Under the pieces are notes generated by a model, which had not been told where the DNA came from, searched no databases, and saw only the letters and a program-made list of their open reading frames with translations. From the NCBI GenBank assembly GCA_903840265.1, contig CAIMFH010000021.1, positions 1 through 64,000 of the forward strand: DNA of 64,000 bases, read 5' to 3'. This document shows positions 34,248-42,013 of the stretch, piece by piece. Each line of letters begins with the position of its first letter. Position 1 is the stretch's first letter. The translations under genes and the position numbers were made by a program. Origin of the DNA: an uncultured Schlesneria sp. Its GTDB lineage: Bacteria > Planctomycetota > Planctomycetia > Planctomycetales > Planctomycetaceae.

Positions 34248-34772
34248 ATGAACGGTCTGAAAACTTCGCTGGCGGCACTCGTATTCGTGGGGGCCATTGC
34301 AGGCCAGGCCTTCGCTGATGTTCAGGTGGAACTGAAGAAGACGCATGTCTGTTGCGGACAGTGCGAGAAAGCTGTTGCCAAGGTTCTGGATGCCGAAGAG
34401 GTCAAAGGCGCCGCGAGCAAGACAGACGGCACGGTGAAGTTTACCGCGTCGGATACGAAGACGGCTCAGAAGGTGCTCGACAGTCTGGCGGCAGCGGGCT
34501 TTCATGGCGTCGTCGACAATCAGGATCTGACAGTTAAGGACGACAGCGGCGCGAAGGAAGGCAAAGTCACCAGCCTGACATTGAAAGGGGTGCATAACTG
34601 TTGCGGACAATGCAACAACACCATCAAGAAGGCGATCAAGTCTGTCGAAGGAGTTGAATCCGAAGATGCGAAGGCCAACGCCGAAACCATCACCGTGAAG
34701 GGCAACTTCGACGGCAAGGCATTGGTCAAGGCCCTGAACGACGCCGGGTTCCATGCGACGGTTGAGAAGTAG
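34248..34772 (+). CDS. Secreted protein with two HMA-like domains carrying CCGQC motifs
   Basis: 174 residues. A signal peptide (LAALVFVGAIAGQAFADV) is followed by two tandem domains of about 70 residues with the ferredoxin-like layout of heavy-metal-associated domains. Each has CCGQC where classic HMA domains have M-x-C-x-x-C: THVCCGQCEKAVAKVLDAE and VHNCCGQCNNTIKKAIKSVE. Both end in AAGFHGVV- or DAGFHATV-like strands. A periplasmic metal-binding or metal-delivery role is plausible but unproven. A palindrome follows the stop codon at once. Confidence 0.82.
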   Translation: MNGLKTSLAALVFVGAIAGQAFADVQVELKKTHVCCGQCEKAVAKVLDAEEVKGAASKTDGTVKFTASDTKTAQKVLDSLAAAGFHGVVDNQDLTVKDDSGAKEGKVTSLTLKGVHNCCGQCNNTIKKAIKSVEGVESEDAKANAETITVKGNFDGKALVKALNDAGFHATVEK

Positions 34773-34903: not shown

Positions 34904-36310
34904 GTGTCTGATCAGCCCGAAAAGGAAACTGCGGCCCTGAGCGTGTGGGATGCCGTCAGTCTGATCATCGGGATCGTGATCGGCACGACTGTCTTCAAGA
35001 TGTCGGGGACGATCTTCGCGAACGTCCCCGACCCCTGGACCGGCCTGGGGCTGTGGCTGATCTGCGGCGGGTTGTCATTCGTCGGAGCCCTTTGTTACGC
35101 AGAACTCGCCACGACCTATCCGCGTCTCGGCGGCGAGTACAATTATCTGACACGAGCCTTCGGGCCCTCGATCGGCTTCCTGTTCGGCTGGTCGCAACTG
35201 GCGATTATCCAGACCGGTAGTATCGGGGCGTTGTCGTACGTCTTCGCCGAGTACGCCGTCAAGGTTTTCGGAGTCGATGAGAAACTTGTCGTCTGGTTCG
35301 CGATTGCTGCGGTCGCCGGCCTGACCGCCTTGAACTGCCTGGGGATTCATTCGGGCAAGTGGACTCAAAACCTGCTGTCGGCTTCGAAGACCCTGGGGAT
35401 CGTGATGCTGATTGCGGGGGGCCTGAGTGCCAGCGGCTCGGCTTCCCTCGTGGTGGAACGTCCGGTGGAAGGACCGGGGCTGTCGCTCGCGATGATCCTG
35501 ATTCTGTATGCCTACGGGGGCTGGAACGATGCCGCCTTCGTTGCTGCTGATGTGCGCGATCGGCAGCGAAATATTCCGCGAGCTTTGCTCTTGGGAATAG
35601 GAATCATTTCCGCCTGCTACGTCCTGATCAACGCCGCCTATCTGGCGACACTCGGTTTTGAAGGTCTGCGAGCATCTCATCAGCCCGCCAGTGATGCGAT
35701 GAAGAAGGTGTTCGGGTCATTCGGTGAACGGGCGATCAGCGTGCTGGTGATGGTGTCGGCCTTGGGCAGTGTCAACGGCTTGGTTTTTTCTGTCTCTCGA
35801 CTGCACGCCACGGTCGGGGCCGATCATCGAGTCTTCTCGCTGCTGGGACGATGGTCCACTTGGTCGAAAGCTCCTGTCTGGTCGCTGCTGGTGCAGGGCG
35901 GGATCGCCTGTGCCATGATCTTTTGCGTAGGAACCGATGCTGGTCGCAAAGCGGTCGACGCGGGACTTGCTACCATCCACGCCTCTCCGGTTCCCTGGGG
36001 CAAGTACTATGGCGGGTTCGAGACCCTGTATGCAGCCTCCGCCCCGATCTTCTGGTTGTTCTTTCTGACGACAGGCATCGCGTACTTTGTGCTGCGAGTG
36101 AAAGACCCGAAGATCGAACGACCTTTTCGAGCTCCCTTCTTTCCGCTGTGCCCGCTGCTGTTCTGTGGGATGTGCGTTTTCGGACTGTATTCAGCCACGA
36201 CTTATGCCACGCCGTTGCTGCCGTTGATCGCGGTCCCCTTTTTGCTCGGTGTGCCGCTGTACTTCCTCAGCGAACGACTTCGCCCCCAATCCTCCAGGCG
36301 GACGGAATAG
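34904..36310 (+). CDS. APC-family amino acid permease
   Basis: 468 residues with about twelve hydrophobic segments, an integral inner-membrane amino acid/polyamine transporter. The first helix has the family pattern LIIGIVIGTTVFKMSG, followed by GLGLWLICGGLSFVGALCYA and ELATTYPRLGGEYNYLTRAF, the conserved APC start. The C-terminal part ends in a basic tail (LSERLRPQSSRRTE). The start is a GTG with GGGAG upstream. The substrate cannot be predicted. No repeat separates it from the module that begins at 36522. Confidence 0.9.
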   Translation: MSDQPEKETAALSVWDAVSLIIGIVIGTTVFKMSGTIFANVPDPWTGLGLWLICGGLSFVGALCYAELATTYPRLGGEYNYLTRAFGPSIGFLFGWSQLAIIQTGSIGALSYVFAEYAVKVFGVDEKLVVWFAIAAVAGLTALNCLGIHSGKWTQNLLSASKTLGIVMLIAGGLSASGSASLVVERPVEGPGLSLAMILILYAYGGWNDAAFVAADVRDRQRNIPRALLLGIGIISACYVLINAAYLATLGFEGLRASHQPASDAMKKVFGSFGERAISVLVMVSALGSVNGLVFSVSRLHATVGADHRVFSLLGRWSTWSKAPVWSLLVQGGIACAMIFCVGTDAGRKAVDAGLATIHASPVPWGKYYGGFETLYAASAPIFWLFFLTTGIAYFVLRVKDPKIERPFRAPFFPLCPLLFCGMCVFGLYSATTYATPLLPLIAVPFLLGVPLYFLSERLRPQSSRRTE

Positions 36311-36521: not shown

Positions 36522-38087
36522 GTGAAGCAGCGCATTGCGAACTGCCCGGCCTGTGGCGCGCCGATTGAGTTTCAGCTGAGCACCGCGCTCGTCACCGTCT
36601 GCGGCTTCTGTCACTCTGTCGTCGCACGCACGGACAAAAAGCTGGAAGACCTCGGCAAGGTCGCCGATCTGTTCGAGACCAATTCACCGGTCAAGAAGGG
36701 GATGACGGGAACATTCGAAAAGAAGAGCTTCGATGTCGTTGGCCGAGTCCAATACCAGCACCCTGCGGGCGGTGTTTGGGACGAATTCTATTTGAAGTTT
36801 CCTGGTGATCGAGTCCGCTGGCTGGCTTACGCTCAAGGCAAGTTCTACCTGACGACGGAAAAGAGACTTACCGACACTTCACAGATCCCCGACTTCGAAA
36901 CGATGACACCCGGCTATCGTCTGAACTTACCCGATGGCAACACGCTGGTCGTGGCGGAATCGGGGACCGCGACTGCTCGATCCGCTGACGGCGACATTCC
37001 GTGGGCGTTCCATCCGAATGCCGCACATCGCTTCGTCGACCTGCATGGTGCCGACAGCGAGTTCGCAACGCTCGAATACGATGCCGACGGACCTCATCTG
37101 TTCCTTGGTCGCGAAATTGCCGTCGATGATTTGAAGCTGACGGGCGACTCGTGGCAGTTCGAACAACCGCCGTCTGCCAACGTCGGTGTGTTGCAACTGA
37201 GTTGCCCGCAATGTGGCAGCCCGCTCACACTGCATGCCCCGGATGAAACGTTACGAGTCTGCTGCCCCAGCTGTAAATCGCTGCTCGATTGTCAGCAGGG
37301 CAAGCTGGAATACCTGCAGACGCTGACGATGAAACAGGGCGAGAAGCCTTTGATTCCGCTCGGCGCTGTCGGCCATTTGAATGGCGTTGAAGTTACGGTC
37401 ATCGGGTACCTGGTCCGATACGTCGTCTACGACGGCAAGAAGTTTAGTTGGTCCGAATACCTGTTGCACAATCCGAAGATCGGGTTTCGCTGGCTGGTCC
37501 TCAACGGGGGTCACTGGAGTTTCGTCGAAGCAATTCCGGTCTCCAGTGTTGTGGAGCAAACAAACTCGGTCGTCTACGAAGGCGAGACCTTCAAACTGTT
37601 TGATCGCGGGACTGCGTTTGTGCAGTACGTGGCAGGTGAATTCTACTGGCGAGTCACCATCGAAGAACAAGTCGCGTCGACCGATTTCATCGCGCCACCG
37701 CGCATGATTTCTTATGAAGCCTCAGCCAATGACACCGGCAGCGAACTAAATATTTCGCTCGGTACTTACTTGCCGAAAGAAGCGGTCGAAGTGGCGTTCG
37801 GTGTAAAAGATCTGCCAACTCCATGGGGTGTCGGCGCGATTCAGCCGGCCCCTCCGCCTCCCAAGGATGTCTACATCATGTGGGGTGTTTTCGTCGTAAT
37901 CCTGATCTGGCTGAACGTGATGTTCCTGTCCAAACTCGTCACGACCCCAGTCAATCAATTTCATTTCTATGTCGCCTTGGTGATCCTGTCGATCTGGCCG
38001 CTGCTGACGATGCTTGGCCGACGACAATTCGAAGTGGAACGCTGGAAACAGAGTGATTTCAATCCTTACCAAGGATCTGACGAATGA
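36522..38087 (+). CDS. Zinc-ribbon / DUF4178 membrane protein
   Basis: 521 residues. It has two zinc ribbons, NCPACGAPIEF..VCGFCHS at the N-terminus and LSCPQCGSPL..CCPSCKS near residue 228. Each is followed by a DUF4178-like beta-rich domain (GTFEKKSFDVVGRVQYQHPA with WDEFYLKFPGDRVRWLAY; GVEVTVIGYLVRYVVYDGKK with WSEYLLHNPKIGFRWLVLN). Two membrane segments lie at the end (YIMWGVFVVILIWLNVMFL and FYVALVILSIWPLLTML), with the bulk presumably cytoplasmic. The start is a GTG directly behind a strong GGAGGT. Its stop overlaps the next start (ATGA), so the downstream small gene is translationally coupled. Confidence 0.85.
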   Translation: MKQRIANCPACGAPIEFQLSTALVTVCGFCHSVVARTDKKLEDLGKVADLFETNSPVKKGMTGTFEKKSFDVVGRVQYQHPAGGVWDEFYLKFPGDRVRWLAYAQGKFYLTTEKRLTDTSQIPDFETMTPGYRLNLPDGNTLVVAESGTATARSADGDIPWAFHPNAAHRFVDLHGADSEFATLEYDADGPHLFLGREIAVDDLKLTGDSWQFEQPPSANVGVLQLSCPQCGSPLTLHAPDETLRVCCPSCKSLLDCQQGKLEYLQTLTMKQGEKPLIPLGAVGHLNGVEVTVIGYLVRYVVYDGKKFSWSEYLLHNPKIGFRWLVLNGGHWSFVEAIPVSSVVEQTNSVVYEGETFKLFDRGTAFVQYVAGEFYWRVTIEEQVASTDFIAPPRMISYEASANDTGSELNISLGTYLPKEAVEVAFGVKDLPTPWGVGAIQPAPPPPKDVYIMWGVFVVILIWLNVMFLSKLVTTPVNQFHFYVALVILSIWPLLTMLGRRQFEVERWKQSDFNPYQGSDE

Positions 38088-38293
38088 ACTTGTCGCCTGC
38101 GGCCTGGTATTACCTGGCCTTTTGTCTGATGACCTGTAGTTACTTTACCGCTGCCGCTGTGAATGGCTGGCCCGGCCCGACATTTGATGACGGCACCGGC
38201 GGCAGTTCGTATTCATCTGGCGGCGGCGGCTACATTGGCGGGTATGGTGGTGGCGGTCGCAGTTCAGGCGGCTTTGGCGGAGGAGGAAAATAG
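38084..38293 (+). CDS. Tiny membrane protein with Gly-rich tail
   Basis: 69 residues: one hydrophobic segment (AAWYYLAFCLMTCSYFTAAA) followed by a flexible tail dominated by Gly, Ser and Tyr (SSYSSGGGGYIGGYGGGG). Overlaps at both ends (ATGA with the DUF4178 gene, one shared base with the DUF350 gene) show it is a real, coupled gene. No family is recognised; such a tail could be an interaction or phase-separating segment. Confidence 0.75.
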   Translation: MNLSPAAWYYLAFCLMTCSYFTAAAVNGWPGPTFDDGTGGSSYSSGGGGYIGGYGGGGRSSGGFGGGGK

Positions 38294-38556
38294 TGCTCTC
38301 GATCAACTCGTTTTCGCTGTTGGCTGAAGTCATCGACGTCGGGGGCGTTCCCAGCGTCTGGCGGCACTTGCCCGCCGTCATCGTCTATTCGATGGTCGGG
38401 GTGCTGGTCCTGGGGGGCTGCTTCTGGATCATGAAGACGCTCATGCCGTTCTCGCTACGCAAAGAGATCGAAGAAGACCAGAACACCGCCCTGGCGATCA
38501 TCATCGGATCGGTCATCATCGGCATGTCGATCATCATTGCCGCCGCGATCCTGTGA
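38293..38556 (+). CDS. DUF350 (YjfL-like) membrane protein
   Basis: 87 residues with two hydrophobic segments (AVIVYSMVGVLVLGGCFWIM and ALAIIIGSVIIGMSIIIAAA) separated by an amphipathic LRKEIEEDQNTA loop, one DUF350 unit. DUF350 proteins often occur beside enzymes of polyamine or peptide-ligation chemistry and beside PspA; their function is unknown. The start is a GTG whose ribosome site AGGAGG lies inside the end of the previous gene. Confidence 0.83.
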   Translation: MLSINSFSLLAEVIDVGGVPSVWRHLPAVIVYSMVGVLVLGGCFWIMKTLMPFSLRKEIEEDQNTALAIIIGSVIIGMSIIIAAAIL

Positions 38557-38593
38557 TCGCATCATCTCAGCCAGCGAGGTCCCCGCAATCCGC

Positions 38594-38681
38594 GTAGCCA
38601 ATCTCGCCAAGAGATTGAGTGAAGTCGATTTGCCAACAACTTCGAAGGACACTCACCCAAGGTCTTGGCGACCTTGGCTAC
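38594..38681. repeat. Dispersed palindrome PR-C, copy 1
   Basis: Arms GTAGCCAATCTCGCCAAGAG (from 38594) and GTCTTGGCGACCTTGGCTAC (to 38681). The core CCAATCTCGCCAAGAGAT recurs at 48062 and, inverted, at 57121. It sits inside the DUF350 / synthase gap and ends 15 bases before the next start codon. Confidence 0.8.
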
Positions 38682-38696
38682 TTTAGTAAGGTTGAC

Positions 38697-40241
38697 ATGT
38701 CCGCAGGGTCGATGAACCGTGCTCCGCTGGTGCTGCTCTATCTGAACGTGCTGATCATCGCCACGTGCGGGCTGGTTTACGAACTGCTGGCCGGCACGCT
38801 CGCCAGCTATCTGCTCGGTGATTCCGTCACGCAGTTTTCCCTGGTGATCGGACTCTATCTCTCGGCGATGGGTGCGGGGGCCTGGATCTCGCGGTTCGTC
38901 GTGGATAAATCGCTGGCCCGCTGCTTTATCGAAGTGGAACTCGGCGTCGCTTTGGTCGGCGGGTTATCGGCCCCGCTTCTCTTCGCCGCCTTCTCGCGAG
39001 TCGACATCTTCGGCGTGGTGCTCTACGGATTCGTGTTTGCGATCGGCTCGCTGGTCGGCTTGGAACTGCCATTGCTGATGCGGCTGTTGAAAGAGCACCT
39101 CGACTTCGAAGACCTGGTCTCGCGCGTACTCGCATTCGACTACATCGGGGCACTCCTCGCATCGCTGATGTTTCCAATCTTCCTCGTTCCGCGACTCGGC
39201 TTGATTCGCACCTCCTTACTGTGCGGCCTGCTCAATGCGGTTGTCGGCGTCTGGGGAACGTACCTGCTGCGACCGCTACTTAATCGGAGCGGACTGTTAA
39301 GTCTGCGGATTCGTGGTGCGTTGGTGATCGGCCTGTTGCTGATCGCGTTTGCGCAGGCCGAGAGACTGACTAAGCTGTCCGAAGAGAGTGCCCTCGGTCA
39401 TGCCGTGATTCATGCAGAAACGACCCATTATCAACGACTGGTGCTGACTCGATCCGAACAAGGCTTTCGCTTGTATCTCAACGGGCATCTGCAATTCAAC
39501 TCGATGGACGAGTATCGCTATCACGAAGCCCTCGTTCATCCCGCGCTATCGCCGATCAGGTCACCCAAGCAGATCCTGGTTCTCGGTGGTGGCGATGGCC
39601 TCGCTATGCGTGAGATCCTGCGATACCCCTCGATCGAATCGGTCACGCTGGTCGACATCGATCCGGGGATGACATCTCTGGCCGATCGGTTCCAGCCCCT
39701 CGCGGAACTCAGCAAGTCGTCGCTTCGAGACCCCCGAGTCACCGTCATCAACGAAGACGCTTTTATCTGGACCGGGCGAGCGAATGGCCCCAAGTTCGAT
39801 GCGGTCGTCATCGACTTCCCCGATCCCGGCAACTTCGCCATCGGCAAGCTGTACACAACTCGCTTCTATCGCATGCTGCGCGATCGCCTGAACGACGGCG
39901 CGATGATCTCGATTCAATGCACGTCCCCGCTGGTCGCCCCCAAATCCTACTGGTGCATCGTTAGCACACTTGAGGCGACCGGCTACCAGGTGCGTCCCTA
40001 TCACGCTCCCGTGCCCACATTCGGCGAGTGGGGTTTCATCCTCGCGTCAGCGGGACCAATCCCCGAACGGCTGACGCTCTCGACAGAACTTACTGGCAAA
40101 TCACGGTTTCTTAACGACGATGTGTTGAACGGCATGTTTGTTTTGCCGCACGATCTGGTTCGCGTGAAAACCGACATCAATCAACTCAACAATCAGGCCT
40201 TGGTCCACTATTACGATGAAGAGTGGGGAGTCTGGAAGTGA
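38697..40241 (+). CDS. Membrane-bound spermidine-synthase-like aminopropyltransferase
   Basis: 514 residues. The first 220 or so form several membrane segments ([56 protein letters not shown]). The rest is a soluble SpeE-like methyltransferase-fold domain: [40 protein letters not shown] (SAM-type site), [10 protein letters not shown] and [20 protein letters not shown] (the family's acidic loop). The family moves aminopropyl groups from decarboxylated SAM, but no SAM decarboxylase is in the window, so another acceptor or donor is possible. I use the ATG at 38697; an upstream ATG at 38619 lies within a repeat. Confidence 0.87.
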
Positions 40242-40282
40242 GCGGATTGAACGTCGCTGAGAACGTTCATTGACGTTTCGTG

Positions 40283-40319
40283 GGGTGCCACGTTCATGCA
40301 GTCTTCAACATGGGCGTGC
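40283..40319. repeat. Dispersed repeat PR-B, diverged half copy
   Basis: GGGTGCCACG, then AGTCTTC, ACA and CGTG, align in order with the reverse complement of the 17621 unit with about nine differences in 37 bases. It lies in the gap before the FAD oxidoreductase. Confidence 0.55.
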
Positions 40320-40381
40320 AATCGGTATAACTGCTCGTCTGACAGCGACACTCATTCTCCACAGATTACTGGTTGTCTAAA

Positions 40382-42013
40382 ATGCGACTAAGCCGTCGAG
40401 AACTGATCGCCCTCATGCTGGGGGCTCCGGCCCTTGCGACGGGATGCTCATCACCCCCTGTTGTTCCTCTACACGGCGAACTGCTCGGCCAATCATTCGA
40501 CATCGGGCATCGATTGCGCGACGGCTTTCGACCACGCCCAGCCGACGATCAATGGCGAAATGTCCAAGTCGCGATCGTCGGTGGCGGCGCGGCGGGCCTG
40601 TCGGCCGGACGGGCCTTGCTGCAAGGAAAATGCGATGACTTTGTCGTCCTCGAATTGGAACTCGTCGCCGGGGGGACGTCTCGTTCTGATAAAGCAGGAG
40701 ACATCGCTTATCCTTGGGGAGCTCACTATGTCCCTGTCCCGCTGGCCGACAACAAGCCACTGATTCGGCTGTTCACCGAGATGGGGGTTGTCGAATCGCT
40801 GGCCGCGGATGGATCACCGGTCGTCGCCGAACAGTATCTTTGTCGCGACCCCGAAGAGCGACTGTTCTATCAAGGGGAATGGATCGAGGGGCTGTATCCC
40901 GCGACCGGGGCTTCGCAAGAAGACCATATGCAGTTGAAGGCCTTTCGCGAATTGATTGACCTGTTCGCGGCCTGGCGAGACTCATCCGGACGCCGCGCCT
41001 TTGCCATTCCGACCAGCCTGGCCACGGACGACAAAGAGATCATGGAGCTGGACAAGCTGTCCATGGCTGATTGGTTGAGGGGCAATGGATTTTATTCACC
41101 ACGTTTGCACTGGCTGGTCGATTACAGTTGCCGCGACGACTACGGCCTTTCCGCAGAAACGACCAGCGCCTGGGCGGGGCTGCTCTACTTCGCATCGAGG
41201 CTGCGCGCCCCCGGGGCCGACCATCAGCCCTTGATCAGTTGGCCCGAAGGAAATGGCCGGATCATCAACTACCTCGCCGAAGTCATCGGCCCGCGTCTGC
41301 AGACTGGCATGGCGGTCACACAACTGACGCCAGTCACCAGCGATAAAGGGGATTTCGTCGAAGTCACCTGCTTCAACACGCAGACTCAATCTGTGACCGG
41401 CCTGCGAGCCCGACACGTCATCTTCGCCGCGCCTCAATTCCTGGCACCACGATTGATCACAGAGTTCACCGAACGAACCAAGCGGAAAACGGATGAGTTC
41501 GAGTACGGGTCGTGGTTTGTCGCGAATCTGCACTTAAAGGATCGACCGCCACAAAAACAGGGGTATCCGCTCTGCTGGGACAACGTGATGTTTCGCAGCC
41601 GCTCATTGGGCTATGTCGTCGCGACTCATCAGGCCGGTCGCGACTATGGCCCGACCGTGCTCACCTGGTACTACCCGTTCACAGAATCGCACACGCGTGA
41701 AGTGCGGGAGAAGCTCTTGAAGGCCACGTGGGCCGATCTGGCAGACGTGGTCCTCACGGACTTGGAAGTTCCACATCCGCAGATTCGACAACTCGTCGAG
41801 CGATTGGACATCTTCCGCTGGGGTCACGCAATGATTCGACCGAAGCCGGGCTTCATCTCCAGTCAGCAACGTCGTGACGCCCGCCATCCTGACGGTCGCA
41901 TTCACTTCGCCAACACCGACCTCAGCGGCGTCGCCCTGTTCGAAGAAGCTTTCGACCACGGCTGCCGCGCCGCCGATGAGGTGTTGTCAGCGTTGCCTCA
42001 AGATCGCGTCTAG
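40382..42013 (+). CDS. Tat-exported lipoprotein-like FAD oxidoreductase (amine-oxidase fold)
   Basis: 543 residues. The N-terminus combines a twin-arginine motif (LSRRELIAL) with a lipobox-like ALATGC, predicting a folded, cofactor-loaded protein held on the outer face of the inner membrane. The FAD-binding start is VQVAIVGGGAAGLSAGRALL with VVLELE at the end of strand 2, then GGTSRSDKAGDIAYPWGAHY. The C-terminal motif with FANTDLSGVALFEEAFDHGC resembles flavin amine oxidases. Together with the preceding synthase this hints at oxidation of an amine or modified lipid. The start is the ATG at 40382, not the TTG three codons before. Confidence 0.85.
   Translation: MRLSRRELIALMLGAPALATGCSSPPVVPLHGELLGQSFDIGHRLRDGFRPRPADDQWRNVQVAIVGGGAAGLSAGRALLQGKCDDFVVLELELVAGGTSRSDKAGDIAYPWGAHYVPVPLADNKPLIRLFTEMGVVESLAADGSPVVAEQYLCRDPEERLFYQGEWIEGLYPATGASQEDHMQLKAFRELIDLFAAWRDSSGRRAFAIPTSLATDDKEIMELDKLSMADWLRGNGFYSPRLHWLVDYSCRDDYGLSAETTSAWAGLLYFASRLRAPGADHQPLISWPEGNGRIINYLAEVIGPRLQTGMAVTQLTPVTSDKGDFVEVTCFNTQTQSVTGLRARHVIFAAPQFLAPRLITEFTERTKRKTDEFEYGSWFVANLHLKDRPPQKQGYPLCWDNVMFRSRSLGYVVATHQAGRDYGPTVLTWYYPFTESHTREVREKLLKATWADLADVVLTDLEVPHPQIRQLVERLDIFRWGHAMIRPKPGFISSQQRRDARHPDGRIHFANTDLSGVALFEEAFDHGCRAADEVLSALPQDRV

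Follow-up and report, generated by a model that had tools for sequence, protein, structure and literature searches.

This study concerns a module of five same-strand (+) genes at positions 36522-42013 of a 64,000-nucleotide stretch of contig CAIMFH010000021.1 (the window), from an uncultured Schlesneria sp. whose genome assembly spans 7.49 Mb in 204 contigs with a completeness of 99.98%. The module encodes, in order, a DUF4178 protein, a Gly-rich peptide, a DUF350 protein, a membrane protein resembling spermidine synthase (membrane SpeE) and a flavin amine-oxidase-like protein (Table 1). A check of the open reading frames (ORFs) bore out the positions, strand and overlaps described in a previous reading of the letters alone (the sequence-only reading): the DUF4178 gene, with its stop codon at 38085-38087, runs four bases (ATGA) into the peptide gene, which starts at 38084, and the peptide stop (38291-38293) shares one base with the DUF350 start (38293). 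Profile searches likewise agree with the identities proposed there, namely DUF4178 with zinc ribbons, DUF350, an aminopropyltransferase-like enzyme and a flavin amine-oxidase-like protein bearing a twin-arginine translocation (Tat) signal, and the membrane aminopropyltransferase-like character of the enzyme is upheld by the PRK03612 match, structural model and Foldseek search given below.

Membrane SpeE and its genomic company

Membrane SpeE matches PRK03612 / NF002956, the polyamine aminopropyltransferase entry of NCBIfam, at 640 bits (curated cut-off 472), and Pfam Spermine_synth at E 1.5e-32. Its AlphaFold2 model, built with 82 sequences (predicted local distance difference test score, pLDDT, 93; predicted template modelling score, pTM, 0.86), places helices at 34-66, 69-93, 96-125, 128-157, 163-216 (long enough for two) and 223-245 ahead of the catalytic domain; together with the hydrophobicity profile this gives seven membrane helices, the seven-transmembrane (7TM) architecture stated for this spermidine-synthase family by Ravi et al. 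2024 (PMC11237479, of which parts of the text are the source here and throughout). Foldseek groups the catalytic domain with aminopropyltransferases, the best matches being the Thermus structures 1uir/3anx (30-31% identity). In an alignment of 82 homologues, little or no variation is seen at Q292, D297, E298, Y301, H302, the GGGDG motif, D399 and D402, which are active-site-type residues of this fold with putative catalytic roles. Family and fold show the protein to be a membrane aminopropyltransferase-like enzyme, with transfer activity predicted. Translation may in fact begin at an internal ATG in the vicinity of 38712, since residues 1-33 are mostly of low confidence in the model and several homologues begin there.

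Turning to the other products, the DUF4178 protein matches its Pfam family (122.7 bits, E 1.6e-35) over two stretches of its sequence (P0001), each copy sitting behind a cysteine-paired zinc ribbon, and its four CxxC cysteine pairs are invariant among 15 aligned homologues. The model of this protein (pLDDT 85) is mostly beta, with helices at 448-469 and 479-509, and a fold search against the Protein Data Bank (PDB) returned no usable solved relative. The DUF350 match (E 1.7e-13) extends over positions 3-65 of the 133 in the profile, roughly half of the domain. The module contains the window genome's sole DUF4178 locus, with its two adjacent domains, and its sole DUF350 gene. No Pfam family matched the peptide at E 1, and its N-terminal hydrophobic segment is weak. 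The flavin protein matches Pfam Amino_oxidase (E 7e-21), a family broader than amine oxidases, and gave a single match among PDB sequences, to monoamine oxidase A (MAO-A; E 6.8e-4).

Conservation of the module was assessed on 126 stretches, comprising the window, 40 DUF4178 regions from the phylum (L033-L072), 80 membrane-SpeE loci from many phyla (L073-L152; of 570 relatives, the 80 most similar to a single query) and five loci from plasmids (L155-L159; five read out of 53 plasmid records with a SpeE match). A SpeE profile match above 120 bits was present in 113 of them, which form the locus set for the counts that follow, with neighbours counted within 6 kb of membrane SpeE. The neighbours were DUF350 (95 loci), DUF4178 (86), SpeD (38), the 'lipo7' lipoprotein (34), PspA (26), the flavin protein (25), a K+-channel-like protein (24), CesT (13) and a membrane protein, 'c10' (12). 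The survey upheld the module drawn in the sequence-only reading, but with a smaller constant part: DUF4178, a tail protein (one with the lysine end described in the next section), DUF350 and SpeE co-occur in 80/113 loci, whilst all five kinds adjoin in just 24/113. These four genes are therefore the core and the flavin gene, present in 14 of the 28 planctomycete loci, is accessory. Across 392 genomes sampled from the phylum, DUF4178 occurs in at least 41 (a lower bound, because two genomes, G064 and G081, were missed there and found by a later profile) and membrane SpeE above the NCBIfam cut-off in 37, with both together in 34 (Fisher p 1.4e-38); the association of the module is not chance. 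The window's gene order is also annotated on a Novosphingobium plasmid, with an SPFH gene ahead of it and SpeD after it, and no actinobacterium is among the 12 plasmid matches with a SpeE coverage of at least 80%.

The sequence-only reading had supposed that the donor might not be decarboxylated S-adenosylmethionine (SAM), and had called for a genome search for speD. This search found SpeD on another contig of the window genome. The loci with SpeD near SpeE include all three (L033, L034 and L035) that other genomes in the window's family contributed, and SpeD is present in 32/37 phylum genomes with membrane SpeE as against 74/355 without (p 1.9e-15). Presence and linkage of SpeD count against a donor other than decarboxylated SAM, and that supposition is not supported. 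The SpeD genes beside SpeE can nevertheless be called only putative SAM (AdoMet) decarboxylases, because some homologues, planctomycete ones included, decarboxylate ornithine or arginine instead (PMC10407285, from part of its text). The link drawn in the same reading between these families, polyamine enzymes and PspA is in print (Ravi et al. 2024, PMC11237479), but in the window genome PspA lies elsewhere: two PspA genes are on other contigs, and neither PspA nor CesT, the latter sought only beside the module, is among the module's named neighbours.

The C-terminal Gly-Lys

What had been overlooked is the C-terminal Gly-Lys of the peptide. A protein ending in Lys lies near SpeE in 100/113 loci (95 Gly-Lys, four His-Lys and one Val-Lys), and all 28 membrane-SpeE loci of the planctomycete set, the window included, have such a protein. 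An automatic filter with a pattern requiring [GH]K gave 87 of these tails, and 13 more were added by reading: Gly-Lys in L041, L049, L062, L074, L082, L087, L116, L126, L138, L139, L145 and the window, whose own tail had escaped the automatic filters, and Val-Lys in L159. The lengths of several tail proteins are stop-to-stop. Applied to each last residue in turn over the 113 loci, the same filter returned Lys at 87, Arg at 8, Ser at 5, Phe at 3, Ala at 2 and each of the others at 0-1, and it found no [GH]K end more than 5.5 kb from SpeE. Amongst distal genes of the 80-locus SpeE set, 1/165 ends in Gly-Lys and 27/165 end in Lys.

Tails were also sought without this pattern. A lipoprotein profile from which the final 15 residues are missing picked out 34 proteins, and 34/34 of them end in Gly-Lys, as do 5/5 found by the same truncated profile in later-fetched regions. 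In a slot test, which took the most hydrophobic ORF whatever its end, 33 of 47 loci yielded an ORF above threshold and 30 of these 33 end in Lys (26 Gly-Lys, three His-Lys, one Val-Lys); in two of the three misses a second ORF ends in Gly-Lys, and the third is the window, where the peptide falls under the threshold. A further 11 SpeE regions were obtained later, of which four are cut by contig ends and the seven with full context all carry a Gly-Lys tail. The codons of the tail vary (AAA 75 and AAG 25 for Lys, all four codons for Gly), so that it is the protein end itself that is conserved.

Little else of the tail is kept, positions -3 to -12 being loosely Gly, Ser, Arg or aromatic, and the peptides in the slot after DUF4178 diverge in sequence and share the Gly-Lys end. 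The carriers of this end are unrelated (short peptides, lipoproteins, Bacillota proteins, DUF4178 fusions): in Bacilli they are proteins of 186-232 aa, in some Bacteroidota, Clostridia and Coriobacteria the end is on DUF4178 or a DUF4178-like protein with one hydrophobic helix, and lipoproteins from other operon types end in Gly-Lys as well. The Gly-Lys end is the most constant feature of the module outside the enzyme, and these data establish both its constancy and its link to membrane SpeE. The possibility that the Gly-rich peptide is low-complexity noise is ruled out by this conserved end.

The tail accompanies the SpeE module and not orphan SpeE, since it is absent from DUF4178 loci that lack SpeE and from most orphan SpeE loci. 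By the same filter, none was found at three loci with DUF4178 and PspA and no SpeE (L068, L071, L072), the genomes of which have a tail beside SpeE and DUF350 on another contig (L213-L215), or at four where DUF4178 is divergent and both SpeE and DUF350 are absent (L040, L046, L048, L053). SpeE loci without a recognised DUF350 or DUF4178 have a tail in 2/12 cases (three of the 12 being at contig edges), compared with 98/101 of those with either.

Table 1. Features of the window module, and loci that depart from the Gly-Lys tail.
Feature	Location	Strand	Basis or remark
Double-DUF4178 protein, 521 aa, two zinc ribbons, two C-terminal hydrophobic helices	36522..38087	+	Pfam DUF4178; model
Gly-rich peptide, 69 aa, proposed acceptor	38084..38293	+	Slot between DUF4178 and DUF350; ends in Lys in most relatives
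Codons for C-terminal Gly-Lys of the peptide, directly 5' of the TAG stop	38285..38290	+	Sequence; last-residue statistics
Short DUF350 membrane protein, 87 aa	38293..38556	+	Pfam, 51.2 bits (cut-off 26)
Membrane SpeE, seven transmembrane helices and C-terminal spermidine-synthase domain	38619..40241	+	PRK03612; model; Foldseek
Flavin amine-oxidase-like protein, twin-arginine and lipobox signal, accessory	40373..42013	+	Amino_oxidase, 75.4 bits; signal pattern
Peptide ending Val-Lys	L159, 5465-5728		Exception to Gly-Lys
Lipoprotein-like tail	L143, 3812-4642		One residue beyond Gly-Gly-Gly-Lys; counted as without tail
No tail	L073, L107, L123, L130		Contig edges, little or no context
No tail	L089, L091, L105, L118, L134, L137, L147		SpeE without DUF350/DUF4178
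No tail	L095		Despite DUF350

Upstream of the module the window encodes a 174-aa protein with two heavy-metal-associated (HMA) stretches (34248-34772) and, directly upstream on the same strand, an amino-acid permease (34904-36310); nothing was seen that ties the permease to the module. The c10 protein (about 400 aa) follows the flavin gene in L034 (13992-15230) and relatives, and the L034 copy matched no Pfam family. In Flavobacteriales (L097, L098, L101, L102), two membrane SpeE genes are arranged tail to tail, one with DUF350 or a Gly-Lys lipoprotein and the other then with a polytopic c10 and a flavin protein; no tail of its own was seen for the second SpeE, which may act on the product of the first. 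A role in anti-phage defence was considered and rejected, PADLOC giving one match for SpeE (mad2, 57.5 bits, confined to the synthase domain) and, for the flavin protein, nothing beyond trivial matches.

A candidate acceptor and its alternatives

The mean numbers of Lys plus Arg in successive SpeE loops (1.74, 0.18, 2.07, 0.10, 2.93, 0.78, 3.71) alternate as expected for an inside N-terminus and, with seven helices, the catalytic domain is therefore predicted to lie outside. The tail proteins (93, with DUF4178 fusions excluded) have 1.92 Lys plus Arg before the hydrophobic core compared with 0.85 after it, so that the tails are predicted to be extracytoplasmic like the catalytic domain; lipobox-like signals and the Tat flavin protein agree with this side of the membrane.

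The E. coli ygiB-ygiC and yjfIJKLM-yjfC loci are of similar build and contain an ATP-grasp enzyme that RefSeq names peptide-spermidine ligase, a name reportedly founded on work by Pederick et al. in 2023; the partner proteins of both systems end in Gly-Gly. In a sample made up of these two loci and 10 from plasmids (158 plasmid records had a YgiC match), a protein neighbouring the YgiC-like ligase ends in Gly-Gly in 10/12, the partner having been chosen by eye in three of the ten (Acinetobacter, Deinococcus, Arthrobacter), where neighbours were not annotated DUF1190. The exceptions are Sphingomonas, with a different end, and Azospirillum, where no partner was seen. None of the 14 neighbouring proteins read at ligase loci ends in Gly-Lys and, conversely, the same filter found [GH]G ends near membrane SpeE in 0/113 loci. 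Judged as a YgiB/YgiC system, the window has the Gly-rich tail, but this ends in Gly-Lys instead of Gly-Gly, and a profile search found no GSP_synth (the ATP-grasp ligase) in the window genome. The Arthrobacter plasmid gene for a 169-aa Gly-rich tail ending Gly-Gly beside a YgiC-like enzyme (L164, 4368-4874) is annotated tRNA-dihydrouridine synthase, a name that is probably wrong.

The strongest reason for regarding the tail end as a substrate is this apparent match between end and enzyme type: Gly-Gly accompanies a ligase, which couples spermidine to a carboxylate, and Gly-Lys accompanies an enzyme that alkylates amines, so that the end looks like what the enzyme acts upon. The fixed C-terminal Gly-Lys likewise points to a protein, not a free metabolite, as acceptor. 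We infer, with a probability of roughly 0.6, that membrane SpeE transfers an aminopropyl group from decarboxylated SAM to the terminal lysine of the tail, giving a protein-borne spermidine mimic. With slightly less assurance we favour the wider proposal of a bacterial system, present in many phyla, in which a dedicated protein is exported and its encoded terminal lysine is converted, by a membrane aminopropyltransferase with an extracytoplasmic catalytic domain, into a spermidine mimic fixed at the surface, as a counterpart of the Gly-Gly/peptide-spermidine-ligase systems.

In such a mechanism the module would encode an exported protein with a final lysine on a flexible Gly-rich tail, together with the enzyme that modifies this lysine. 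SpeD would produce decarboxylated SAM, which would reach the outside by some route, and the seven transmembrane helices would set the spermidine-synthase domain outside the cytoplasmic membrane, on the side of the tail. SpeE would aminopropylate the side-chain amine of the C-terminal lysine, perhaps repeatedly, with release of methylthioadenosine. Because the side chain of lysine, like putrescine, offers four carbons and a terminal amine, the resulting C-terminus would be spermidine-like, i.e. a four-carbon chain, secondary amine, three-carbon chain and amine carried on a surface protein. DUF350, plus PspA where present, would position or sense the tail, and the flavin oxidoreductase, found at roughly one locus in five, might oxidise the amine so attached; the roles of DUF350, DUF4178 and the flavin enzyme are putative throughout. 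Decarboxylation of the tail lysine by a SpeD homologue was also considered and rejected, as enzymes of that kind require a free alpha-amine.

The alternative that survives best, albeit an unlikely one, is that SpeE synthesises a small polyamine in free form, either at the membrane or outside it, with the Gly-Lys tail serving as a docking or sensing element for the polyamine, DUF350 or the enzyme. Such a role suits the family name and fold, which belong to free-polyamine synthases, and the best fold match, a Thermus triamine/agmatine aminopropyltransferase, uses small amines. It does not, however, explain why the last residue is fixed while the remaining tail drifts, or why the end switches to Gly-Gly with a ligase-like enzyme, and the window genome already has a soluble SpeE. 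That Gly-Lys is a signal for another process (sorting, proteolysis, or assembly with DUF350 or a chaperone) merely sharing an operon with SpeE is improbable: DUF350 and SpeE are about equally frequent companions of the tail (a tail is present at 92 of the 95 DUF350 loci), but eight tails occur at loci without a recognised DUF350, and the DUF350 operons of E. coli, Rhizobium, Vibrio and Pseudomonas that have a ligase-like enzyme end in Gly-Gly, so that the end follows the enzyme and not DUF350. We attach a similarly low probability to aminopropylation of a lipid or other envelope molecule, in line with the amine-modified molecule envisaged in the sequence-only reading, with the tail protein as a partner alongside, for whilst the membrane setting, the PspA genes near SpeE in 26/113 loci and the published operon company with envelope-stress genes (Ravi et al. 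2024, PMC11237479) would fit, a Pfam search of the five proteins found no lipid-handling domain and the constancy of the tail would be left unexplained.

Several points weigh against aminopropylation of the terminal lysine. The tail is missing in 13/113 loci (Table 1), and the four His-Lys ends and the one Val-Lys end mean that Gly is not absolute. Most of the 100 tails were picked by the [GH]K pattern, so the pattern-free tests carry the weight, and the 80-locus SpeE set, being ranked by likeness to one query, is not an even sample. The topology of both enzyme and tails is a matter of prediction, and export of the window's peptide is less sure than that of its relatives because it lies below the hydrophobicity threshold of the slot test. 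An extracytoplasmic enzyme would require decarboxylated SAM outside the cell membrane, and we know of no exporter for this compound. Finally, the window genome contains a soluble SpeE-like frame of 310 aa, and the organism therefore probably makes free spermidine too.

Comparison with known systems

Spermidine synthases fused to a membrane domain occur widely, in many cases together with SpeD, and the title of a 2019 paper by Li et al. is said to pose their product as an open question; the fixed Gly-Lys end offers a candidate acceptor. Were the terminal lysine indeed aminopropylated, a mass shift would be predicted on a single residue, the modification would be a new one for bacterial proteins, and the membrane spermidine-synthase-like proteins would have the acceptor that they have so far lacked. 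The shared company of polyamine genes, DUF350 and, in other phyla, PspA would then be accounted for as well, namely by a joint part in building and using cationic surface tails.

The operon type is already published. Ravi et al. 2024 (PMC11237479) describe CesT/Tir-PspA operons with a 7TM spermidine synthase, DUF350, the Ctha_1186 lipoprotein and DUF4178, with DUF4247 as the partner in another operon variant, and raise aminopropylation of other substrates in general terms. The window module shares with these the 7TM spermidine synthase, DUF350, DUF4178 and an exported protein, and relatives of that operon type also end in Gly-Lys. It differs in its short DUF350, its doubled DUF4178 with zinc ribbons, its added flavin lipoprotein and its 69-aa peptide, which replaces the Ctha_1186 lipoprotein and does not match the lipo7 profile; from operon position, this profile would correspond to the Ctha_1186 lipoprotein. 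The parts of that paper drawn on here mention neither a C-terminal residue nor the lipoprotein as substrate. The literature searched yielded nothing on a C-terminal Gly-Lys tail or on lysine aminopropylation by these enzymes, which, as few subscription papers were covered, is weak evidence of absence.

Soluble aminopropyltransferases (Thermus 1uir/3anx and thermospermine synthase 6bq2) resemble membrane SpeE in catalytic fold and conserved residues, at about 30% identity, but are without its membrane domain or a partner tail protein and use small free amines as acceptors. A polyamine built on the side chain of a protein lysine has precedents in the hypusine of eIF5A and the aminopropylated lysines of diatom silaffins, although these are eukaryotic or archaeal and involve other enzymes; to our knowledge, no modification of this type is known on the terminal lysine of a bacterial exported protein. 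A parallel in layout, YgiB/YgiC and YjfM/YjfC, likewise sets an exported Gly/Ser-rich tail protein (DUF1190) next to a polyamine enzyme, and the E. coli yjf operon also contains DUF350, as well as PspA. There, however, an ATP-grasp ligase accompanies a Gly-Gly end, whereas here an aminopropyltransferase-like enzyme accompanies Gly-Lys and, if the terminal lysine is its substrate, two unrelated enzymes, a ligase acting on Gly-Gly and a transferase acting on Gly-Lys, would converge on the same outcome.

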